Shown here: positions 1-30,356 of the stretch, piece by piece
Position numbering within the stretch: position 1 is the first letter of the stretch
Layout of the letters: each line of letters starts with the position of its first letter
Source of the DNA: Deltaproteobacteria bacterium
GTDB taxonomy: Bacteria > Desulfobacterota > Desulfobacteria > Desulfobacterales > Desulfosarcinaceae
Reading direction: 5' to 3'
Assembly: GCA_020444075.1 (NCBI GenBank)
Contig: JAHLLR010000056.1
Span: 1 to 33,199, forward strand
DNA: 33,199 nucleotides
Notes under the pieces: generated by a model
Seen by the model: the letters and a program-made list of their open reading frames with translations, nothing else
The model's database searches: none
Told to the model about the DNA's origin: nothing
Translations under genes and position numbers: made by a program

Positions 1-155
1 AGAGCCATCCCGTTTTTGTTGATTTTCCCGACGGGGAGTTTGCAAGACGGACAGACGTCTACGTTCAGGGGCATGTATTCCATGCATTCCGGGCATTTTT
101 TAGAGATATACCCGTAAGATTTGCCGGAATCGATAGAGCCGTGTGGTGTTTTCAT
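1..155 (-). CDS. Small zinc-ribbon protein, N-terminal part only
   Basis: The first 51 codons of a minus-strand gene that runs off the left edge. The ATG is at 155-153. The visible protein begins MKTPHGSIDSGKSYGY and then has two cysteine pairs, CPEC and CPSC, about a dozen residues apart, the usual layout of a small zinc ribbon or rubredoxin-like knuckle. No signal peptide or membrane segment is seen in this part. It lies 54 bases downstream of the PpiD-like gene on the same strand and could be cotranscribed with it. Function is unknown; metal binding is inferred only from the CxxC pairs. It may be a short stand-alone zinc-ribbon protein or the head of something larger. Confidence 0.6.
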   Translation of the reverse strand, partial: MKTPHGSIDSGKSYGYISKKCPECMEYMPLNVDVCPSCKLPVGKINKNGMA

Positions 156-209
156 GGGAAACCCATCTTGTTTTTTTTCTAACGCAGGAGACTGTTCAGG
201 GACGACCCG

Positions 210-2102
210 TTATTCCAGATACGCTTTTTCGATGGTTATCTGGCTGTCGGCTTTCCGTGCATCGATCCAATCCTGGATCACCGTCTTTTGCTTCTGTCGA
301 AGGAGCCTGCTATTGATGTCGCCTTTCTCGGCTTCAAAACCGTCGGCTTCGGGCGCTTTTCTCTCTGACAGCCGTAGCAGATAGAAGCCCGCGGTTCCCT
401 TTACCGGCCCTTCGGTTGCATTTCCGGGCGAAGATAGCTGAAAGGCCGCTTCAGTGAATTTGGGGTCCGAACCAATATCCGGAATCGGTTCGTTGCGCGT
501 GAACCGGCCGGTGTGCTTTATTTCCACGCCATGAACGGAGGCGCTTTCTTCGAGCGATTTTCCCGTACGCAGTTCTGCCGACATTGCTTCGACATCCTCG
601 CTGGCTTTGTCGGCCTGCATTTTCTCGGTCAGATCCGCTTCCACGCGTGATTTTACAGCCTCCAGTTCAGGAATGACAGCTTCGATGGTTTCCGTGGGCT
701 GAATGAGGTAATACCGACCGCCGATATCCTGAATGTCGCTGATTTCATCAGTCTGGAGGGCAAACGCGGCGGCGGCGAACGCCCCTTTGTCCCTGCCCAG
801 TACGTCCGGTCCCCGGCGGCTGAAGGAACCGGTTTCCATCACGGCAAGCCCGAATATCTTCGCATTTTTGACCAGATCGTCCTTCTCAAAACAGCCCTCA
901 TAGAATTTTTCCGCCTTGTCGTAGGCCAGATTCCGTGATTTCCTAACGGTCAGGGCGTCGATAATCTGTTCTCTGCTTTGTTCAATCGTTTTGGTGGACG
1001 CTTCTTCCACGGATTCCACCTTGATGACATGCCACCCGAACTGGGTTTTTACCGGATCGCTGATTTCCCCCGCAGACATGGAAAATGCCTTGTCGGCAAA
1101 GGGTTTGACCATCTGGGATTGCTGGAACTTGCCCAGATAGCCGCCCCGGTCTTTGGTGGGGCCCTCCGAATAGGTTTTTGCCAGTTCGGCAAAGTCCTGG
1201 CCGCCCTTGGCCATCTTTGTGATCGCTTCCGCCCGGGTTTTGGCTGCCAGATCGGCTTCTTCGTTTGCGCCCGGATCTACTTTGATCAGAATATGGCGTG
1301 CCTCTACGGTTTTTTCGGTTTTGAATTCATTGATATTGGAGTCATAGTAATCCGTGATTTCATCTTCATCAATCTTAACCTGATTTTTATAGGCCTCCGG
1401 GTCGAACACCACATATCGGGCCTTGATCATCGGATCGGTTTTGTAGTTTTCTTTTTTGGCCTCGAAATAGGCTGCAATCTCTTCTGCCGAAGGTTTGATA
1501 TTCGTGTATCGGGCAGGCTCGAACAGAACGTAGTCGATGTTGACTGACGTGTTCTGCCAGTCATACCACTGGCGTGCTTCCGCTTCGGACACCTTTGCTG
1601 CACCCATGATGATCCGGGTGAGTTTTTGACCCAGTAAAACGTTTTTCTGATCCGCTTCAAACTCTTCCGGAGAGAGATGGACCTGGGCAAGGATGCTGCG
1701 ATAGCGGCGACTGTCAAAGGATCCGTTGTTCTGAAAGACAGCCGTTTGCTTGATCGATTCGGCAACCTCGGCGTCAGAAACCCGCAGGTCAAGTTTCTTT
1801 GCCTCCTGAAGTAAAATGGTGCGGTCGATCAGTTGATTCAGCGCCTGGTTTTTGACCTGGAGCATTTCAATCATGTCATCATTCAGACTGGAACCGAACC
1901 GTTGACGATATTGATCAAGCAGGTTGTTGTATGCGCGCCGGTAATCAACAACCGAGATGATTTCATCGTTGACGACGGCAACCTTGGATGCCTCCCGGGA
2001 ACGGAAACTGCCCACGCCCCAGAATACGAAAACGATTACGATAGCAAACAGAATTACTTTGATCATCCAACTACCAGCTTGTTTCCGCATCACATTGAGC
2101 AT
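210..2102 (-). CDS. Membrane-anchored PpiD/SurA-like peptidyl-prolyl isomerase chaperone
   Basis: A 630-residue protein with the architecture of PpiD: a short cytoplasmic N-terminus, one membrane anchor (about residues 12-30, hydrophobic ending FVFWGVG), a SurA-type helical chaperone region (about 35-260) and a parvulin PPIC domain (about 265-365, opening with VEARHILIKVDP and including GGYLGKF and FGWHVIKV). A weaker rotamase-like segment follows near residues 480-610. Such proteins sit on the periplasmic face of the inner membrane and help fold exported and outer-membrane proteins. The ATG at 2102 has GAGGT upstream with a good gap. The length matches the PpiD family (about 620). The exact orthologue name is not certain because SurA_N/PPIC proteins vary in this phylum. 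Confidence 0.88.
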   Translation of the reverse strand: MLNVMRKQAGSWMIKVILFAIVIVFVFWGVGSFRSREASKVAVVNDEIISVVDYRRAYNNLLDQYRQRFGSSLNDDMIEMLQVKNQALNQLIDRTILLQEAKKLDLRVSDAEVAESIKQTAVFQNNGSFDSRRYRSILAQVHLSPEEFEADQKNVLLGQKLTRIIMGAAKVSEAEARQWYDWQNTSVNIDYVLFEPARYTNIKPSAEEIAAYFEAKKENYKTDPMIKARYVVFDPEAYKNQVKIDEDEITDYYDSNINEFKTEKTVEARHILIKVDPGANEEADLAAKTRAEAITKMAKGGQDFAELAKTYSEGPTKDRGGYLGKFQQSQMVKPFADKAFSMSAGEISDPVKTQFGWHVIKVESVEEASTKTIEQSREQIIDALTVRKSRNLAYDKAEKFYEGCFEKDDLVKNAKIFGLAVMETGSFSRRGPDVLGRDKGAFAAAAFALQTDEISDIQDIGGRYYLIQPTETIEAVIPELEAVKSRVEADLTEKMQADKASEDVEAMSAELRTGKSLEESASVHGVEIKHTGRFTRNEPIPDIGSDPKFTEAAFQLSSPGNATEGPVKGTAGFYLLRLSERKAPEADGFEAEKGDINSRLLRQKQKTVIQDWIDARKADSQITIEKAYLE

Positions 2103-6472: not shown

Positions 6473-7414
6473 ATGATACTTAAAATCATTGTGTTGGCGT
6501 CGCTGATTTTCGGGCTGATGGTGAATACCGCACCCGCGGACCAATCGACGAAGAACCGGTTCTTCTACAGTGGCGACGGTTACCTTCACTTGGTAAGCAA
6601 TAAGAGCGGTAAGGCCTTCAAGGGACGCTATCGTAAAGGGTACAGTCAATATCATGCCGACGCTTACAGGGAAATATCGGCTGTTTTCGGCGCGCCATAC
6701 CAATCCTCGCGTCAGGTCCTTTCATTGCGATTGATCGAATTTTTGGATTACCTTGAAGACCGATTGGCACCGGGTGCGGTGCTCACGATTACCTCCGGAT
6801 ACAGGCCCCCGGAATACAACACCCGACTGCGCAAGGGGGGTGCCTTGGCGGCCAAGGCAAGTTTGCATCAATACGGCATGGCCGCTGATTTCATATTGGA
6901 GGGAGTTCCGTCAAAACGGGTATGGGAATACGTGCAATCGATAGGATTTGGCGGAACCGGATATTACCATGGCAAAACGGTGCATGTGGATGTGGGACCC
7001 TCACGGTTCTGGGATGAAAAAAGTTCAGGTGTGGGCACGGGCCTGTCGGATGACAACAAGCTAATTGGCGTGGTAACCGATTACGATGTATATGGTCCCG
7101 GGGAATGGGTGACGTTGCGCTTTATTCGCATGACCGCCTTCCCCATCAGGGTGCAATCGGAATTCAAGCTTATTCCCAGTAAGGTTCCGGGAAATATGGA
7201 AGGTACTCTTGCGTTTAGGCCTGATTCCGGGAAGATAACCGATGACAGGTGTGCTGAATTCGACAATATCGACCAGATGGCTTCGTTGCGGTGGCGCCTG
7301 CCGTTGAATATTTTGCCTGGGCGCTACCTGATTCGTGCTGGTTTTTGTGGCAATTTGTGGGAAAGGATGCCGGAAGACGTTTCTACTCCGGATTTTGAGA
7401 TTCGTTTCCCATGA
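6473..7414 (+). CDS. Secreted M15/YcbK-like (DUF882) murein peptidase with a C-terminal extension
   Basis: A 313-residue protein with a signal peptide (about 1-22, ending NTAPA). The catalytic domain (about 60-180) has the zinc-peptidase pattern of YcbK and D-Ala-D-Ala peptidases: [11 protein letters not shown], then His132 and Asp139 in [11 protein letters not shown], and His171 in TVHVDVG. It should cut peptide cross-links in periplasmic peptidoglycan. YcbK itself is only about 180 residues; here some 130 further residues, probably beta-rich, follow without a recognised domain. No clear Shine-Dalgarno precedes the ATG at 6473. The stop abuts the fragment of an ABC ATPase gene, so the 3' end lies at a recombination junction, and the native C-terminus should be compared with relatives. 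Confidence 0.82.
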
Positions 7415-7994
7415 CCGATATAAGCGTTGGAAAGATCAGTTGATGGAGGTGGTCGGGCTGCGGCCAAGCCAAGCCCGGCGCTACCCCCACGAATTCAGCG
7501 GTGGTCAGCGCCAGCGAATCGTTATTGCGCGGGCCCTGACCCTGCAGCCAAAGTTCATCCTGGCCGACGAACCGGTGAGTGCCTTGGACGTCTCTATCCA
7601 GGCCCAGGTCATTAACCTGCTGCTGGGGCTTCGAAAACGCTTTGGCTTGACCTACCTCTTTATTTCTCATGATCTCAGTGTCGTAGAGCACATATGTGAT
7701 CGAGTGGCGGTAATGTATTTAGGCCGCATCGTAGAGTTGGCTGACAAAAATTTTTTTTATGGACAGGCGTTGCATCCCTAATCCCAGGCACTGCTTTCCG
7801 CCGCGCCCAGGCCTGAACCAGGCGCCAACCGACGACGAATTGTCTTGCATGGTGATGTGCCAAGCCCCATCAATCCTCCCGGCGGTTGTACATTCAATCC
7901 CCGATGCCCTGAGGTACGTGAAAGATGTAAGATCGAGTGCCCGGAGTTCAGAGAGGTGAGCCCGGGAAGATGGATAGCCTACCATTTCAGGTAA
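7415..7994 (+). pseudogene. Decayed OppF/DppF-type oligopeptide ABC transporter ATPase, 3' part only
   Basis: Similarity begins near 7430 ([17 protein letters not shown]) and runs through the ABC signature FSGGQRQR, Walker [15 protein letters not shown] and H-loop FISHDLSVV. The Walker A half is missing. At 7779-7781 a TAA stands where relatives have tyrosine in HPYSQALL. The same frame then continues as SQALLSAAPRPEPGANRRR, IVLHGDVPSPINPPGGCTF and NPRCPEVRERC, and ends REVSPGRWIAYHF at the stop 7992-7994. That is the normal C-terminus of peptide-transport ATPases, including its oligopeptide-ABC tail. This is therefore a 5'-truncated gene with an in-frame nonsense change and no frameshift seen. 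It cannot make an active ATPase. No transporter partners are nearby. Confidence 0.92.
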
Positions 7995-10544: not shown

Positions 10545-13500
10545 CTATCGATGCCTGGCCACCATCGCTTCGGCCAGCTTTTCCGCCGATTGGCCGAACA
10601 GGTCGTCCACGGCCACTTCGTTCAGGTAGTCGTCGGTCCAGGAGACGCTGTTTTCCTGGACAATGTTCTTGATGTGCTCGTATTTCCCACCCAAGGCCTT
10701 GATTCTCTTCTCCAACGGGATGGCCTCCTTGAACCCGATATTCAACAGCAGCAGGTAGCGGATGCGACTGCCATCCGTGGGATCTTCCGATGTGGCCGGA
10801 ATTACCACGATGCTGCGCCCGTCTTTTCTGCCCTTGCCGATATAGACGTTGCCTTCGCTGACGATGATGCGTTTGGTGCCCTTGAGGACCGGGTCGGTTT
10901 CCACCCGCGACGCCAGCTGGGCCTGGACGCCCGTCTTTTTCAGGATGGCAATGGTGGTTTGATCCGTGGGATCGCCCAGCAGACCCAGGCCATCGATGCG
11001 GTAGAGGATGCTGCCTTTGACGTGGTCAATAACACCCTGGATGTTCTTCATGACGATGATGTTGCGGTTGACCACCTGGGAAAGGTCCAACTTGTGGTCG
11101 GTCAGGGTTTCGAAAAGGATGCCCTCCACCCGCTCGCTGATGCGGCTCGTGCCCACGGTGACGGTTTTGGCCTGGTGTTTGATGGCGTCCACCGGGCGGG
11201 ACATGAGATTGATGGACTCTCCCAGCACGCGGAAAAGACTGTTGAGTACATTTTTGGCGGTTCCCTTAAGGCCGAAATCCATTTCGAAATCGGACAGCGG
11301 CAGCCGGCCCGACAGGTACTTGAACAGCAGGGTCAGGTCCGATGCATGGGTGATGGCCGTGGGGAATTGCTCGGCCTTGCGCCGGTCGCGAAAGACCTGG
11401 TAAAAACCGGCGATTTTCTCCCGGAAGGTCTTTTCCAGAACGACCTCGTAGACGTCCAGGCCCTGTCCGGCAAGATCGTCAAGGGTATTGTGGATGGATT
11501 CACGGACGCCGTGGAGGAACCGGGATCCTTCATGAATGGCCAGCGCGGCGTGGTAGCCCCAGATGTGGCCCACCAGCGTGTTGAGAATGGGGGCAAACTG
11601 GGGGCTCACCCGGGGAACGTGAAAGACATCCTCGGCATACGGCCGGAAGCGTTCCTCACCTTCGTCGGCGATAACCACCGGGGCGGCCTTGTGGGCCTTG
11701 AATATGGCCGTATCTTTGATGATGTCCCCGATGACAGTGCCTTTGGAACCGGCGGCGCAGACGATAATCAGCGGCTCGGAGGAGAGGTCGATGTGCTTCT
11801 TATCCTCCACAAAATCCGAGGATATGGTCTTGTAGCACAGTTCGCTGAGCTTGATGCGGATCTCGTCCGCCGAGGATTTGTTGGGGCCGCTGCCCACGGC
11901 CGCCCAGTAAGTCTTGGTGGCTGCCAGGCGCCGGGCCGACGCCTGGATTTGATTTCCCATGGCCAGAACGGTGCGCATGTGATCGGGGATTCGCAGCAGT
12001 TCCGCGATCTGGTCCGAGAGAAACTCGGTGGAGCGGCGCCCCTTGATCCCGGCCACTTTCAGACCCAGCAGGGCACCCGCGACGATCTGCGAGTAAAAGG
12101 CTTTGGTGGAGGCCACGCTCATTTCGATATCCCGGCCGCTGGAGGTATACAATACACCGTCGACCTTGAAGGTGATGTCCGAGTCCCGGCGGTTCACGAT
12201 GGCCAGGGTGTAGGCGCCGCGGGCCTTGACCATATCCACGGTGCGGTTGGTGTCGGTGGTGGTCCCGGACTGGCTGATGGCAACGACCAGGGCGTCGGCC
12301 ATGCTGGTGTCGTCGTCGCCTTCGTTCAATTCGAACCCGCTGAGTTCCGAAGCCTTGAGGGCTCGCAGCTGAATGGCGGGATCGGCCAGATAGGATTTCA
12401 GGATGTCGGCGCAAGCCTGGGCGGCCACCCCCGCCGTTCCCTGTCCCACGAAAAAAACGCGGCGGATCCGATCTTCCCTGAAGGCCGCTTCCAGCGAACG
12501 GGGGAAGGCGCGTTCGTCGAGATGAATGACGTAATGCCGGCCGTCGCCGGCAATTTTCCAGCGATTGAGCAGGGTGCGTTCGACCGACTGGGGCGCTTCG
12601 GAAATCTCTTTTAAAAAGTAGTGGGGGTATCCCTGCCGATCGATATCCCTGGAGGTGATTTCCGTACGCTTGACGTCGTCGTCGGAAAGCTGGATGGGGG
12701 TGCCGTCGTAGTACATGGCGGTGATGCCGGCGAGTCCTCCGGGGGAGCGCTGGTCCAGGATGAAGATCTGGCCCTGGGTCGGCCCGTTTTTCCCGTCCAC
12801 TATCTGCTCACCGTTCATCTTGAGGAAACGGGATGTCTCCTCGATGAATCCATAGACTTCGGAAGCCGGCATATAGTGGTCTTCGGCCAGTCCCACAAAA
12901 ACGGCCTGGCCGCTGCCCTTCTGAGCCAGGAAGAATTTTCCCGGGGCCAGGTCGGTGTGCATGGAAATGGCGTGGGATCCCTGGAAATCGCTTACCGCCA
13001 GTCGGAAGGCCTCGGCCACGCCGGCGCCGGTTTTAAGGTAGTGCTCGATCTGCAGGGGAATGATTTTGGTGTCTGTCGTGATCGGTTCGGGAATGGTGCA
13101 CCCGGAGGCTTCCATCGCTGCTTTGAGTTCCTGGTAGTTGTCGATATCGCCGTTGAGGCAGGCATGGATGATCGGACGGTCCTTCAAGGTGGCGCCGGAG
13201 AGGGTATTGTCCACCGGATGGCAGTTGGGTTCGGTGATGGCGCCCACCGAGGCCCAGCGCGTATGGGACGACACGGTGTGGAAGGTGTGGGGGGCGGCGG
13301 CGATTTGCATCAGGATGTCGTCCTGTTGAATCTGCCGGCGCAGGAAGCGGATATTGTCCCCCAGGCTGCCGATTTCGGCGGCAATTTTATAAACCACCGT
13401 CAGGGCCACGATCGCCTGGCCGTTGTCGGCGGCAGAGCGGTTCATGCTGATGCTCGTGTTGCCCAGAACGTCGCGATCCATGCGGCGTTCGACATCCGCG

Positions 13501-14315
13501 GCGAGGCCTTTGCGGTCAAATTCGGCGGCGAGTGTTTCATACGCTTCAGCCGGCAGGATAAACAGAATGGAGATGCCTGCCGAATCCCGCCCCCGCACTT
13601 CAAGCCGGTCGATGCTGTTGAGCACGGCGTTGATCTGTCGCAGAACGGTAATGCGGCCGTCCGGCCCCTGGCCGGCGGGGTCGGGCATCAGCGACCGGAT
13701 GCGTCCGATGTTGCCGGCCAGTTCCACATCCAGGCACCAGATCATGTCCTTGAGGGCTTCGAGACGCGTGGAAACCACATCGACCACCCGGGGGGCCAGG
13801 CTGCCCACCTGTCTGGTCAGCAGGGCCTGCTCTCGCTGCAGAACCAACGATAGTCTACCGGACAGATCGGCGACCGTTTTCTGGGCGGCCGGATCCTTGA
13901 ACAGGGTGAGAAACGCAGCCTCCTGCTTGAGGGTCCGGATGTTGGCCAGCAGGGTGTCCAGCGTCGCCTGTCCACCCAGGTATCCGCCGGCGAAGGCATC
14001 CATCTCAGGGAGCCGGGTTTCCAGTCCGGCCGCCGCGGCGGTATCGACGAGTGCGGCCATGGAGGAAAGATCGATCTTAACGTTGCCACCCGCTTTTCCC
14101 TTGACCGCAATGATGCCGGCCAGGCCGCAGCAAAGCCGGTTAACGGAGCAGGGGAAGAGGATTACCGCCGGCCCGGCCACATTCGCGGTATGCCGTCCCC
14201 AGTAGATCGAAGGCCATCGTGAAAACCGACTTCGAATGTTGGGAATCAGACGAGACAGGCGCTCAACGGCGCACGCGGCATGCCAGGCCAGGGTGGCGGT
14301 ATGGATAGGATTCAT
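10545..14315 (-). CDS. Giant GlmS-like glutamine amidotransferase/SIS-domain protein
   Basis: A 1256-residue protein containing all parts of glucosamine-6-phosphate synthase spread over twice the usual length. Class II glutaminase motifs: CCGLAGII with the expected catalytic Cys63, RGRDSAG at 241, HTRWASVG at 351, LNGDIDNY at 387 and TTDTK at 413. Then YPHYFLKEI (563) and two SIS sugar-isomerase domains, about 618-750 (SQSGTTTDTN, SVASTKAF) and 803-930. About 320 unrecognised residues follow. Compared with GlmS there are insertions of roughly 150 residues between Cys and RGRDSAG and 65 before HTRW. AAAGGA precedes the ATG at 14315, so Cys63 should need removal of a propeptide, as in PurF or GltB. 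It probably makes an amino-sugar phosphate; the product is unknown. It lies 46 bases after kdnB. Confidence 0.85.
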   Translation of the reverse strand: MNPIHTATLAWHAACAVERLSRLIPNIRSRFSRWPSIYWGRHTANVAGPAVILFPCSVNRLCCGLAGIIAVKGKAGGNVKIDLSSMAALVDTAAAAGLETRLPEMDAFAGGYLGGQATLDTLLANIRTLKQEAAFLTLFKDPAAQKTVADLSGRLSLVLQREQALLTRQVGSLAPRVVDVVSTRLEALKDMIWCLDVELAGNIGRIRSLMPDPAGQGPDGRITVLRQINAVLNSIDRLEVRGRDSAGISILFILPAEAYETLAAEFDRKGLAADVERRMDRDVLGNTSISMNRSAADNGQAIVALTVVYKIAAEIGSLGDNIRFLRRQIQQDDILMQIAAAPHTFHTVSSHTRWASVGAITEPNCHPVDNTLSGATLKDRPIIHACLNGDIDNYQELKAAMEASGCTIPEPITTDTKIIPLQIEHYLKTGAGVAEAFRLAVSDFQGSHAISMHTDLAPGKFFLAQKGSGQAVFVGLAEDHYMPASEVYGFIEETSRFLKMNGEQIVDGKNGPTQGQIFILDQRSPGGLAGITAMYYDGTPIQLSDDDVKRTEITSRDIDRQGYPHYFLKEISEAPQSVERTLLNRWKIAGDGRHYVIHLDERAFPRSLEAAFREDRIRRVFFVGQGTAGVAAQACADILKSYLADPAIQLRALKASELSGFELNEGDDDTSMADALVVAISQSGTTTDTNRTVDMVKARGAYTLAIVNRRDSDITFKVDGVLYTSSGRDIEMSVASTKAFYSQIVAGALLGLKVAGIKGRRSTEFLSDQIAELLRIPDHMRTVLAMGNQIQASARRLAATKTYWAAVGSGPNKSSADEIRIKLSELCYKTISSDFVEDKKHIDLSSEPLIIVCAAGSKGTVIGDIIKDTAIFKAHKAAPVVIADEGEERFRPYAEDVFHVPRVSPQFAPILNTLVGHIWGYHAALAIHEGSRFLHGVRESIHNTLDDLAGQGLDVYEVVLEKTFREKIAGFYQVFRDRRKAEQFPTAITHASDLTLLFKYLSGRLPLSDFEMDFGLKGTAKNVLNSLFRVLGESINLMSRPVDAIKHQAKTVTVGTSRISERVEGILFETLTDHKLDLSQVVNRNIIVMKNIQGVIDHVKGSILYRIDGLGLLGDPTDQTTIAILKKTGVQAQLASRVETDPVLKGTKRIIVSEGNVYIGKGRKDGRSIVVIPATSEDPTDGSRIRYLLLLNIGFKEAIPLEKRIKALGGKYEHIKNIVQENSVSWTDDYLNEVAVDDLFGQSAEKLAEAMVARHR

Positions 14316-14361: not shown

Positions 14362-16648
<2,287 letters not shown>

Positions 16649-16658
16649 ACATGCCTCC

Positions 16659-18050
16659 TTATCCTCGGGAATTATTCCCTGCCTGTCCCTTTTTGGCAAA
16701 ATAGTCCTTGAAATAGTGTTCGATGGCCATTCGGGCATACTGTCCGGCCCGGATGCCGATATAATCTTCATGGGCCACCATTACCGCGACCACTATTTTT
16801 TCGGATCCTTTTTTTTCCGTGGCGAATCCAACGAACCAGTCGAAGCGGGCATCATGGGCCCGGTTGTAGATAGAGCCGGTTTTGCCTCCCAGGGTCAGGC
16901 GTGACAAGACCTTGCTGCGACCGTGTCCGCGAAATATCTTTTTTGCGGTGCCCGAGGATACGGTGGCAATCATGAGCTGGTTCAGCACGTCGGCCGTTTT
17001 GGGAGATACCGCTGCGGTCAAAAATTGAGGTTCGGTCCGATAAACCGGGTTGCCGTTATCGTCGATGATCCGGTCCACCAGGGTCGGCTCCACCGGCTTG
17101 CCGCCGTTGACCACCGCCGAAACGATCACCGCCCCATGGAGGGGGGAAAGCGTCGTGTAGCGGTTGAACCCGCTGGCAATTTCCGCCCGGTGGTAGGATT
17201 CGTCATCTACGGCCAGCCGGCTGGTGGGCCAGTAAAGCTCGAAATCGACCTGCCGGTTGAAAGCAAAGGCATCTCCGTAAGCTTCCAGGGTTTCCCGGTT
17301 GAGGATCAGTGCCCCTATTTTACCAAACACCGGATTGACGGACTGGGCAAAGGAATCCCGCAGGGAGATAGAATTGGTGTAGCGGTTGGTCTTGTCCGTC
17401 AACTGGCGTTTGTAAAGGGTGTGTTTGTAGCCGTTGAAACTGAACCGGGAACCGGCGGTATAGCCTTTCTCTTCAACCGCCGCCGCTGCCGTTACGATCT
17501 TGAAGAGGCTGGCTGCCGGGTATTCGGCCATCAGGCAGGGATCCCGGTCGGGATCAATCTTGTTGAATCCCGCCATGGCCAGAATCCGACCCGTGTCCGG
17601 CGCCATGGCCACGATGCCGATATAGCGGGAATTTTCACGGTCCATGCGTTTGAGCAGATACTGCTGAAGCCCCAGATCCAAACTGGTGCTTACCTGGTAG
17701 GGGCGGCCGTCGAAGTCGACCTTTATCGGGTTCGCCTCCAGGTTGATCAGCCGGGTTTTTCCCAGAAGGATGTGGACATCCGCTTTTTCAATCAGGCCCG
17801 GGGTCTTTGCCGTCTTCTGCGGCGGGACTGACTCCGCGACAGCCGCACCCGTTTCCTTGTTGATGCCTGCGGTGAAAACCCACCCGATCCCTGCAATTGC
17901 CAGAATCAACAGCCCCGCAACCACCCACGGCCTGCCGCGGTTCAGCCGGGTGCGTCTGGACGGGAAGTACTGACGCCTGAGGCTTTCCTGGTAGGTTCTC
18001 CAGCTGGGCTGGGGTGACGAATGCGTATCACGTTTAAAAAAGCGGGTCAT
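16659..18050 (-). CDS. Penicillin-binding protein, transpeptidase domain
   Basis: A 463-residue inner-membrane protein with a short basic cytoplasmic N-terminus, one membrane segment (about 41-62) and a periplasmic transpeptidase domain. The three penicillin-binding motifs are present: SLFK with Ser181, SVN at 237-239 and KTG at 390-392. The region between anchor and catalytic domain is small, and there is no glycosyltransferase domain, so it is a compact class B-like PBP or a PbpA/MrdA-related form. It should cross-link peptidoglycan. It is 27 bases after metG and 10 before kdnA on the same strand. Its role, elongation versus specialised, cannot be told here. Confidence 0.85.
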   Translation of the reverse strand: MTRFFKRDTHSSPQPSWRTYQESLRRQYFPSRRTRLNRGRPWVVAGLLILAIAGIGWVFTAGINKETGAAVAESVPPQKTAKTPGLIEKADVHILLGKTRLINLEANPIKVDFDGRPYQVSTSLDLGLQQYLLKRMDRENSRYIGIVAMAPDTGRILAMAGFNKIDPDRDPCLMAEYPAASLFKIVTAAAAVEEKGYTAGSRFSFNGYKHTLYKRQLTDKTNRYTNSISLRDSFAQSVNPVFGKIGALILNRETLEAYGDAFAFNRQVDFELYWPTSRLAVDDESYHRAEIASGFNRYTTLSPLHGAVIVSAVVNGGKPVEPTLVDRIIDDNGNPVYRTEPQFLTAAVSPKTADVLNQLMIATVSSGTAKKIFRGHGRSKVLSRLTLGGKTGSIYNRAHDARFDWFVGFATEKKGSEKIVVAVMVAHEDYIGIRAGQYARMAIEHYFKDYFAKKGQAGNNSRG

Positions 18051-27322: not shown

Positions 27323-27967
27323 ATGTTCATTACTTTAGAAGGCATTGAAGGGTCCGGGAAAACCACCCAGATCCAGATTGTCGCCGATTGGCTGATGACG
27401 ATCGGCCGTGACTGCCTGACCACCCGGGAGCCCGGCGGGACGCCCATCGGCGGTCAGATTCGTTCCGTCCTGCTCCACCCGGAAAACAGTGACCTGGCCC
27501 CTGCGGCTGAGCTGCTCCTTTACGTGGCGGACCGGGTCCAGCATCTGGAAACGGTGGTCCGTCCGGCCCTGGCGGCCGGCAGGGTGGTGGTCTGCGACCG
27601 CTATTTCGATGCCACCCTGGTCTATCAGGGCTACGCCCGGGGACTGGACAGGGGGATGATCCGTCAGCTCCACCAGCTGGTCTGCAACGGCCTGACACCC
27701 GATCTGACCCTGCTGCTCGATCTGGATCCCGAAGCCGGGCTGGCGCGCGCCTGGCGCCGGATTGATGCCGATGCCGCCCATGCGAAGGAATCCCGGTTCG
27801 AAAAAGAGCGCCTGGCCTTCCATCGGCGGGTGAGGGCGGGTTACCTGGATCTGGCCAGGCGGGAACCCCGGCGCTTCGTCATCATCGACGCCGAGGTCGA
27901 CGAGCAGGCGGTGCGTGAGCAGATTGAAGCGGCGCTCAAGTCACGCTTCAAAGGCAATGCCGGATGA
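27323..27967 (+). CDS. tmk: Thymidylate kinase
   Basis: Phosphorylates dTMP to dTDP for DNA synthesis. The 214 residues have the P-loop FITLEGIEGSGKTTQIQ at the start, the substrate segment TTREPGGTPIGGQIR, and VVVCDRYFDATLVYQGYARG. The length is typical. The ATG at 27323 is preceded by GGATGA, which overlaps the stop of the nuclease gene; a TTG two codons earlier is unlikely. The fused cysK-cysS gene follows after 106 bases. Confidence 0.95.
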   Translation: MFITLEGIEGSGKTTQIQIVADWLMTIGRDCLTTREPGGTPIGGQIRSVLLHPENSDLAPAAELLLYVADRVQHLETVVRPALAAGRVVVCDRYFDATLVYQGYARGLDRGMIRQLHQLVCNGLTPDLTLLLDLDPEAGLARAWRRIDADAAHAKESRFEKERLAFHRRVRAGYLDLARREPRRFVIIDAEVDEQAVREQIEAALKSRFKGNAG

Positions 27968-28073
27968 AGCGGGAGGCCCGGTCAGCATCCGATCGACCAT
28001 CGATTCAATTTTTGATGTTGAATTTCGGTTTACATTCCGTTCTTTTTTGCCATTGCAAACGGGACCTTTTGTC

Positions 28074-30356
28074 ATGAACGACAGCATTTTGAATCATATC
28101 GGCAATACCCCGCTGGTGGAGATCCGGCGGCTGAACCCCAACCCGCATGTCCGGGTGCTGGCCAAGCTGGAGTATCTCAACCCCGGCGGTTCGATCAAGG
28201 ACCGCCCGGCGCTGTCCATGATCGAGGAGGGGGAACGGTCGGGTGAACTGAAACCGGGAAAGACGGTGATCGAGGCCACCAGCGGCAACACGGGGATCGG
28301 CCTGGCCATGGTCTGCTCGGTCAAAGGCTACCGGCTGCTGCTGGCCATGAGCGAGGCGGCCAGTGTGGAGCGGCAGCAGATCCTCAGGGCGCGTGGTGCG
28401 GAGATTCTGCTCACCCCGGGCCATCTGGGCACCGACGGTGCCATCGAGGAGGTGTACCGCCTCGCGCGGGAGAATCCCGACACCTATTTCATGACCGACC
28501 AGTACAACAACCCGGCCAACTGGAAGGCCCATTACAACGGCACCGCCGTCGAATTATGGGATCAGACCGGCGGCACGCTGACTCATATGGTGGCTACCAT
28601 GGGCACATCGGGAACCCTGATGGGGCTGTCCCGGCGGCTCAAGGAATTCAACCCCGAGATCCGGATCATCGGGGTGGAGCCATATCTGGGACACCGGCTC
28701 CAAGGGCTTAAAAACATGAAGGAAGCCTACCAGCCGGAAATATTCGAGAAGCGCCTGTTGGACGAGAAGGTCAACGTGGAGGATGAGCCGGCTTTCGAGA
28801 TGACCCGGCGCCTTGCCCGGGAAGAAGGCCTCATGGTGGGCATGAGCAGCGGTGCAGCCATGGTGGTGGCCGCCGAGGTCGCCACGTCCCTGGAGCAGGG
28901 GACGCTGGTGGTGATCTTTCCCGACGGCGGTGAACGCTACCTTTCCACCCCGCTCTTTGCCGTCCAGGAGAAGATAGACCTCAAGCTGTTCAATACCATG
29001 ACGCATAAGAAAGAGCCTTTTTTGCCGGTGAATCCGGGGAAGGTGTCCATGTACGCCTGCGGCCCGACGGCCCATGCCCGCATGCACGTGGGGGAGGGCC
29101 GACGCTTCATCTTTTCCGACCTACTGGCGCGCTACCTGGCTTACCGGGGATATGCGGTCAACCAGGTGATGAACATCACCGATCTGGACGACAAGACCAT
29201 CGAGGGCTCCGAGAAGGCCGGCATGTCCCTGGAAGACTTCACCGGCATGCACATCGAATCCTTTCATAAGGATCTTAAAAGGTTGGGCATCCAGCCGGCC
29301 AATCACTATCCCCGGGCCAGCGAACACGCCGACGATATGGTCAGCCTGGCTGACCGGCTGGTCAAAAAAGGCTATGCTTACGAAAAGCTGCGTTCCATCT
29401 ATTTCGACATTTCGCGATTCAAGGCATACGGCCAGTTATCGGGAATCGACCTCAACAAGATCCGCGTCGGCGCCACCGTGGACCTGGACGAGTACGAAAA
29501 GGACAATCCCCGCGATTTCACCCTGCTCAAACGCACCCGGCTGTCGGAACTCAAGCGGGGCATCTACACGCCGACCGACTGGGGCAACATGCGCCCCTCA
29601 TGGCACCTGCAATGCGCCGCCATGTCCATGCGATACCTGGGGGATTTCTACGATATCCACTGCGCCGGCCGAGAGCTGGTATTTCCCCACCACGAGAACG
29701 AGATCGCCATTGCCGGCGCCCTGACCGGCAAGACCCTGGCCAAATACTGGGTTCACTGCGACCGCGTGCTGGTTGACGGCAAGAAGGTCGACGAAAAGAA
29801 AGATGCCCTGACCATTCAGGGCCTGCTGGACATGGGCTACACGGGGCGGGAGATCCGCTACTGGCTGATCTCGGTCAACTATCGCAAACCGGTCCTGTTT
29901 TCCGTGGCGCGACTGAATCGGGTGCGCAAAACCTTAAAGCGCCTGGATGCCTGTATCCGGGCCTTGAAGAACGTCCGCCGTGGAGATTCCTTCGGGGAAC
30001 TGGATCAGCTCTGCTACGACATCAAAAATGGGTTTGCCTCCGCCATGGACGACGACCTGAACATCTCCGCCGCACTGGCCTCTCTCTTCACCGTGGTCAA
30101 GCGCATCAACACCCTGATTCTGGAAAGGCTCATTGATGCTGCCGGGGCTGAAAAAGTGCTGGAAACGCTGGCCCGCATCAACACGGTGGTGAACATTATC
30201 GATTTTGAGGACGAAACCGAAAACCCGGCCGTACAGCAATTGATGGACGAACGGAGGCGCGCGCGGCAGGCCAAGGACTGGGTCCTTGCGGATCGGCTGC
30301 GCGACCAACTGCTGGAGATGGGGGTGGTTCCCCGGGATGATCGTGTCCGTCCATGA
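28074..30356 (+). CDS. Fused cysteine synthase (CysK) and cysteinyl-tRNA synthetase (CysS)
   Basis: One 760-residue frame. Residues 1 to about 300 are a PLP-dependent cysteine synthase: PLP Lys42 in NPGGSIKDRPA, phosphate-binding TSGNTG and GMSSGAA. Residues about 305-760 are cysteinyl-tRNA synthetase: CGPTAHARMHVGEGR (HIGH region and zinc Cys329), TDLDDKTIEGSEKAG, WHLQCAAMSMRYLGD (Cys514), and the zinc-site HCAGRELVFPHHENE. The ATP loop KMSKS is replaced by KVDEK (571-575, in DGKKVDEKKDALT), a marked departure. The fusion would make cysteine and charge it to tRNA, or form a relay for another cysteine-derived product. The frame is open 53 codons upstream into tmk, but the ATG at 28074 begins the CysK fold. 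The ribosome site is weak (GGGACC). Confidence 0.9.
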   Translation: MNDSILNHIGNTPLVEIRRLNPNPHVRVLAKLEYLNPGGSIKDRPALSMIEEGERSGELKPGKTVIEATSGNTGIGLAMVCSVKGYRLLLAMSEAASVERQQILRARGAEILLTPGHLGTDGAIEEVYRLARENPDTYFMTDQYNNPANWKAHYNGTAVELWDQTGGTLTHMVATMGTSGTLMGLSRRLKEFNPEIRIIGVEPYLGHRLQGLKNMKEAYQPEIFEKRLLDEKVNVEDEPAFEMTRRLAREEGLMVGMSSGAAMVVAAEVATSLEQGTLVVIFPDGGERYLSTPLFAVQEKIDLKLFNTMTHKKEPFLPVNPGKVSMYACGPTAHARMHVGEGRRFIFSDLLARYLAYRGYAVNQVMNITDLDDKTIEGSEKAGMSLEDFTGMHIESFHKDLKRLGIQPANHYPRASEHADDMVSLADRLVKKGYAYEKLRSIYFDISRFKAYGQLSGIDLNKIRVGATVDLDEYEKDNPRDFTLLKRTRLSELKRGIYTPTDWGNMRPSWHLQCAAMSMRYLGDFYDIHCAGRELVFPHHENEIAIAGALTGKTLAKYWVHCDRVLVDGKKVDEKKDALTIQGLLDMGYTGREIRYWLISVNYRKPVLFSVARLNRVRKTLKRLDACIRALKNVRRGDSFGELDQLCYDIKNGFASAMDDDLNISAALASLFTVVKRINTLILERLIDAAGAEKVLETLARINTVVNIIDFEDETENPAVQQLMDERRRARQAKDWVLADRLRDQLLEMGVVPRDDRVRP

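Follow-up and report, generated by a model that had tools for sequence, protein, structure and literature searches.

How can an enzyme that needs its catalytic cysteine at the very N-terminus work when the encoded protein places 62 residues in front of it? This question is raised by a gene on the reverse strand of the DNA analysed here, a window of 33,199 nucleotides from a bacterium of the order Desulfobacterales (contig JAHLLR010000056.1), which encodes a GlmS-like protein of 1256 residues, referred to below as the giant. GlmS is a textbook enzyme whose product is the first committed precursor in peptidoglycan and lipopolysaccharide synthesis, and a class II amidotransferase requires a cysteine at its very N-terminus. 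We consider it probable that the gene is the working glucosamine-6-phosphate (GlcN6P) synthase of its lineage, a double-length form from which a prosegment would be removed at Cys63 and in which ammonia would be passed to the isomerase domain. The gene and its parts are as follows.

10545..14315, reverse strand: giant GlmS-like gene, 1256 residues
14321..14326, reverse strand: Shine-Dalgarno-like AAAGGA upstream of the ATG at 14315
14127..14129, reverse strand: codon of Cys63, the putative catalytic N-terminal cysteine of the mature protein
12651..14129, reverse strand: N-terminal nucleophile (Ntn) glutaminase domain with inserts and linker, residues 63-555
13641..14099, reverse strand: insert 1, residues 73-225 (153 residues), helical in the structure model, within the glutaminase
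13374..13544, reverse strand: insert 2, residues 258-314 (57 residues), within the glutaminase
11526..12650, reverse strand: double-SIS isomerase domain, residues 556-930
11193..11525, reverse strand: insert 3, residues 931-1041 (111 residues), mostly helical, at the junction of SIS domain and C-tail
11151..11192, reverse strand: displaced GlmS C-tail, residues 1042-1055, with Lys1050 (codon 11166-11168)
10548..11150, reverse strand: extra C-terminal domain, residues 1056-1256 (201 residues), alpha/beta in the structure model

Family searches placed the protein with GlmS. Of the NCBIfam models, PRK00331 matched residues 323-926 at 252.7 bits (curated cut-off 381) and glmS (TIGR01135) residues 321-926 at 232.6 bits (curated cut-off 418.05); Pfam SIS matched residues 673-750 (E 2e-12), and Pfam GATase_6 matched residues 349-485 at 26.4 bits, slightly below its 27-bit cut-off. 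The top matches in a search of PDB sequences were GlmS and human GFAT. A glmS riboswitch was sought in the window with Rfam, and the sole match at gathering score was a tRNA.

Structure models of the two halves gave the same assignment. The model of residues 36-576 (mean predicted local distance difference test score, pLDDT, 83.6; predicted template-modelling score, pTM, 0.85) had as its best Foldseek match in the PDB the GlmS glutaminase domain 1xff_B (E 1.9e-10, template-modelling score by target 0.74, root-mean-square deviation 8.4 over 306 columns). The model of residues 556-1256 (mean pLDDT 82.2, pTM 0.66) aligned in VIA-align to the Escherichia coli GlmS isomerase 7dnr_B with Z 40.7 and a root-mean-square deviation of 2.2 over 346 residues. 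For several GlmS chains, 1jxa_A among them (model 1..502 to 241..608, as end points only), the match ran from the beginning of the isomerase domain right through to the end of the chain. Structure matches of this half, among the 50 Foldseek matches shown and in VIA-align, were GlmS and other SIS proteins; the VIA-align matches cover model residues 1 to about 503, so that the domain beyond was barely probed.

Insert borders were taken from an alignment to one canonical GlmS of the same order, to which the giant was identical at 170 of 601 aligned positions. Extra pieces of at least 9 residues were the 62 residues before the cysteine, residues 73-225, 258-314, 335-343, 502-513, 604-613 and 931-1041, and everything beyond the C-tail. 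The first-pass annotation of this DNA had described two insertions of about 150 and 65 residues in the glutaminase; both are there, but their sizes are now 153 and 57 residues, with a further 9 at 335-343. It had also described about 320 C-terminal residues as unrecognised, and that stretch turned out to be composite. The C-terminal ends of the four canonical GlmS proteins fetched, VDQPRNLAKSVTVE in three and PDKPRNLAKTVTVG in one, aligned residue by residue with VDAIKHQAKTVTVG at giant residues 1042-1055, where Lys1050 sits in DAIKHQAKTVTVGTSR. The C-tail is the C-terminus in all four canonical proteins, whereas in the giant it stands after a 111-residue insert and is followed by 201 residues, and only these last remain as a domain for which we found no convincing relative. 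Residues 1038-1058 were the most conserved of 11 stretches compared (mean majority frequency 0.95, 67 rows). Placement of the 111-residue insert depended on the alignment: one run ended the isomerase at residue 930, and another also put three canonical residues at 1018-1020.

Active-site conservation was counted over 111 giants after removal of duplicates; one row was truncated, leaving 110 for the Cys63 column. All 110 had the cysteine, so that the nucleophile position proposed earlier is kept and none of these rows had lost it. It is the second Cys of a CC pair, the first of which, Cys62, is not conserved. Arg353, Asn388, Gly389, Asp415, Glu818, Lys822, Glu825, His841 and Lys1050 were invariant (111/111), and position 681 was Ser in 85 and Thr in 26. 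The giants thus have the Cys-Gly and the Arg, Asn-Gly and Asp residues of a GlmS glutaminase, and the five isomerase residues Glu818, Lys822, Glu825, His841 and Lys1050 are identical in the four canonical rows. We take these five to correspond to Glu481, Lys485, Glu488, His504 and Lys603 of E. coli GlmS, with Lys1050 presumably at the position of the Schiff-base Lys603. Each active-site residue tested was kept, in line with the earlier observation that all glutaminase and SIS motifs are present; the C-tail lysine is an addition that the first-pass annotation had not noted.

The giant protein (match at E 1e-130 or better) and TIGR01135, a model that scored above its cut-off in 14 of 14 control genomes, were both run against one sample of 146 genomes from the order. 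A giant match was found in 136 of the 146, some partial at contig ends or with an internal stop, and canonical GlmS above the cut-off in four, none of which has a giant; one further genome held a giant fragment only. The window's own genome (95.75% complete) had no GlmS above the TIGR01135 cut-off; its remaining matches were partial (116.6, 55 and 15.4 bits, plus 12.6 bits within the giant gene itself). GlmM was above cut-off in the same genome (549 bits), and the best nagB match was weak (37.4 bits against a cut-off of 236.9). In the genome of D. alkanivorans, recorded as complete, the single match was the giant. Because the giant is present in 136 genomes and the canonical form in four, with none carrying both, the giant is most likely the GlmS of this lineage, and in nearly all sampled members of the order the cell-wall amino sugar appears to be the product of a double-size GlmS.

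In a draw from the phylum (E 1e-150 or better), in which only two candidates were scored per genome and further genomes with both forms may exist, giants occurred in 37 of 297 genomes, comprising 11 of the 12 from the order and 26 of the 285 others. In the phylum of an Aminicenantes record, 2 of 80 genomes had a giant, that record's own included, possibly by transfer or through a binning error. The tree placed two loci reached by way of that phylum (L071 and L106) within the giants of sulfate reducers, the branch leading to L071 being long; gene transfer or a binning error would account for this.

The residues before Cys63 fall into two parts.

14211..14315, reverse strand: variable N-terminus, residues 1-35
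14130..14210, reverse strand: conserved prosegment, residues 36-62

Ratios of nonsynonymous to synonymous substitution rates (dN/dS) were calculated for the giant against six close relatives. For residues 1-35 the ratio was 0.66-1.40 in the three comparisons that could be computed. For residues 36-62 it was 0.10-0.27 in four comparisons, the other two being saturated, indicating purifying selection. An extension before the cysteine was present in 87 of the 111 giants and absent in 23 (one row truncated); many of the 23 were fetched deliberately for their late-starting match, so 23/111 is not a frequency. Position 54 was Phe, Leu or Ile in 87 of 87 extension-bearing rows and position 55 was Pro in 86. 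These data bear out a distinct GlmS subfamily with about 62 residues before the catalytic cysteine, as had been proposed.

It could be argued that the extension is an artefact, with translation starting at or near the cysteine and the upstream frame left untranslated. Residues 1-35 do vary freely, and some ATG, GTG or TTG lies in frame between residue 38 and the cysteine in 64 of the 87 rows, in which shorter leaders are possible. However, the codon directly before the cysteine is never of start type (87/87), the low dN/dS of residues 36-62 and the near-invariant Pro55 also speak against it, and an in-frame start upstream of residue 36 is present in 87 of 87 rows, with a Shine-Dalgarno-like stretch in 67. 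In the giant of the window, the ATG at 14315 is preceded by AAAGGA (14326-14321), the clear ribosome site seen in the first reading of the sequence. We regard an artefact as highly improbable. Judged from its sequence, the N-terminal extension is real, a conserved and translated-looking prosegment directly before the cysteine.

The extension-free giants mark the same junction from the other side. GlmS typically carries the cysteine as residue 2 of the encoded protein; here 62 residues precede it, but the typical arrangement holds in those 23 giants, all of which have ATG directly before the cysteine, with a Shine-Dalgarno-like stretch, by our own pattern, in 19. Homologues starting directly at MCG had been named in advance as evidence against a processed amidotransferase. 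They exist, but they do not refute processing, since their ATG falls exactly one codon before the cysteine while 87 others keep the conserved segment. The residue preceding the cysteine in the extension-bearing rows was Cys in 45, Asn in 10, Gly, His, Phe and Tyr in 6 each, Ser in 5, and Ala, Pro and Asp in 1 each. A quick tree built from residues 345-930 required at least 8 changes of the trait, at least 4 of them forced by starred, well-supported branches, compared to a mean of 24.5 when shuffled. The three deepest giants have no extension; since they sit with the outgroup on one long branch, at a join that was flagged by the tool, the tree does not decide between gain and loss. A search of 397 columns for residues of the mature protein that track loss of the prosegment gave none that differed in over four of the seven clades lacking it, and no partner residue is proposed.

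A second alternative is that the extension is never removed, in which case the glutaminase would be silent and GlcN6P made from free ammonia, or the extension would restrain the enzyme permanently. In its favour, ammonia is often plentiful where sulfate reducers live, residues 63-232 have a higher rate of evolution (dN/dS 0.31-0.55) than the remaining enzyme, and the case for cleavage of the prosegment is one of sequence. On the other hand, Cys63, Arg353, Trp354, Asn388, Gly389 and Asp415, like Lys1050, are invariant in the extension-bearing rows taken alone (87/87 each), which is unexpected of a silent glutaminase, and several lineages without the extension start exactly at the cysteine. An inactive glutaminase, one of two options entertained in the first-pass annotation, is unlikely because the tested residues are invariant in these rows too, and retention of the extension in either form seems to us unlikely. 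Removal of the prosegment at X|Cys63 is the economical reading because extension-free lineages put Met exactly there and extension-bearing ones keep all tested glutaminase residues. The mature N-terminus would accordingly be Cys63, freed either by self-cleavage or by a protease, and in many members of the order the glutamine half can probably become active only once a conserved leader of about 60 residues has been cleaved away.

Whether the product is GlcN6P is a separate matter, raised by the genes directly upstream, which resemble those for 8-amino-Kdo (Kdo8N) and together span 14362-16771 on the reverse strand.

14362..15441, reverse strand: KdnB-like 3-deoxy-manno-octulosonate 8-oxidase (PDB 5k8c, E 1.1e-144)
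15455..16771, reverse strand: KdnA-like 8-amino-3,8-dideoxy-manno-octulosonate transaminase (PDB 5k8b, E 1.6e-166, match from residue 42)

Homology of the KdnA-like protein begins only at residue 42, and its true start probably lies inside the open reading frame. The giant might instead supply another amino sugar, such as a precursor connected with these neighbours, with GlcN6P coming from elsewhere. However, a KdnA-like gene was present in 15 of 57 fetched loci, a metG-like gene lay upstream of the giant in 31 of the 57 (many contigs being too short to tell in either count), and at least seven loci had the metG-like gene upstream but, at the cut-off applied, no match to either Kdn gene. The names metG-like and PSP1-like for neighbours are our own reading, with no family search behind them. 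Moreover, the window's genome has GlmM and no other GlmS above cut-off, and the GlmS residues are kept. A different product is therefore quite improbable in our estimation. The earlier suggestion of a new amino-sugar synthase subfamily stands as far as a distinct GlmS subfamily is concerned, but a new synthase is probably too strong, as the evidence points to ordinary GlcN6P synthesis.

Several observations weigh against a giant that is processed and works as the GlmS of its lineage. The protein scores under the curated cut-offs of both TIGR01135 and PRK00331, and the extension-free giants were in part chosen, as noted above. Five of the 146 order genomes had neither a giant match nor GlmS above cut-off; these may be incomplete, yet two of them, G020 and G041, are 97% and 98% complete. 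One genome outside the order (G324) has a giant together with a canonical-size GlmS, so that exclusion is not absolute. The N-half model was of low confidence over model residues 1-40 (block pLDDT 38-54), around the prosegment and Cys strand, and the C-tail was poorly determined in the C-half model (block pLDDT 40-42, model residues 491-510); for these reasons, neither the cleavage site nor Lys1050 can be placed in a reliable model.

Taken together, the directly computed features still favour a processed GlcN6P synthase. They are the layout of the protein, the residues conserved in it, the selection acting on the prosegment, the gain or loss of that prosegment several times over at exactly one junction, and the mutual exclusion of giant and canonical GlmS among the genomes sampled from the order; from them we infer catalysis, prosegment cleavage and ammonia transfer in the giant. 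The newly made chain would begin with a prosegment of about 62 residues, the last 27 of them conserved, and its removal at X|Cys63 would free the cysteine amino group needed by an Ntn glutaminase. Cys63 would then hydrolyse glutamine, and the ammonia would go to the double-SIS isomerase domain, where Lys1050 would hold fructose 6-phosphate as Lys603 does in E. coli GlmS and GlcN6P would be formed. The C-tail links the two active sites and has the 111-residue insert on one side and the 201-residue domain on the other; our guess, on that ground, is that insert and domain most likely act in assembly or regulation. A more specific version, which we hold only tentatively and think somewhat doubtful, is an Ntn-type GlmS zymogen that would cut itself at X|Cys63 after folding, with the insert and the domain by the C-tail forming a new kind of regulatory module to gate the passage of ammonia from one active site to the other. 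If so, self-processing would switch on amino-sugar synthesis across most of an order of sulfate reducers.

The C-terminal domain itself was modelled with mostly good confidence. Its profile against PDB sequences gave three matches (E 0.51, 0.54 and 4.1), and a Pfam scan of 18 members gave four families, each of them in no more than two members (best E 0.015); neither search produced a convincing relative. In a 198-genome draw from the phylum, the domain was matched in 24 genomes, with full copies in giant genes only. Pieces outside giant genes were a 368-residue frame in one genome (G275), whose giant is split across two contigs, and short pieces in two others (G053 and G067). The piece in G067 (contig C41, 28427-28612) is a 154-residue open frame with a fragment of the domain (model 127-188); the giant gene of the same genome lies about 7 kb away.

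Other features of the window and its genome were as follows.

27915-30356, forward strand: 813-residue open reading frame, cysteine synthase (TIGR01136 above cut-off, residues 59-348) fused to cysteinyl-tRNA synthetase (TIGR00435 above cut-off, residues 356-808)
7335-7781, forward strand: apparent gene remnant, a 148-residue frame that aligns with just the C-terminal part (80-136 of 137) of the ABC transporter ATPase domain Pfam ABC_tran

A second, stand-alone CysS is encoded elsewhere in the genome (contig C165, 589 bits), and given this the fused CysS may be specialised. No GlmU was above the TIGR01173 cut-off in the window's genome, as was also the case in 5 of 14 control genomes. The best GlmU pieces lay on two contigs (C103 and C168), as a separate 307-residue frame corresponding to the N-terminal half and a 434-residue frame beside glmM corresponding to the C-terminal half; the route to uridine diphosphate N-acetylglucosamine may likewise be atypical in this genome.

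It appears that an order of sulfate reducers uses a form of GlmS beyond the reach of curated models, and as the giant falls under the curated cut-offs, pathway calls made at those cut-offs would score GlmS as missing. The giants also offer natural pairs with and without a prosegment for the study of its gain and loss in Ntn amidotransferases. Around the C-tail, which couples the two active sites, 111 additional residues on the N-terminal side and 201 on the C-terminal side are tolerated, and an allosteric module could act there. Literature searches, which covered titles and the starts of abstracts and left most subscription journals outside, showed no paper on a double-length GlmS among those listed.

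Among known systems, GlmS and GFAT (TIGR01135; PDB 1jxa, 2j6h and 6r4e) are the closest, sharing with the giant the order of Ntn glutaminase, two SIS modules and C-tail lysine, all tested active-site residues, and the folds of both halves described above. In contrast to their length of about 610 residues, the giant has 1256, with a prosegment, inserts of 153, 57 and 111 residues, a C-tail that is not C-terminal, and a 201-residue extra domain, and it falls below the curated cut-offs. NagB-II and other SIS phosphosugar isomerases (8eym and 7kqa) share the SIS fold, but their chains of about 320-340 residues match the SIS half only, whereas the giant also has a glutaminase. To our knowledge, no prosegment has been described for GlmS. 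Precedents for a prosegment before the catalytic cysteine are Bacillus PurF and the glutamate synthase GltB, and PurF relatives exist both with and without one. The giant likewise carries its prosegment directly before the cysteine, a likeness of arrangement rather than of compared sequences, and its cleavage would follow the same pattern.

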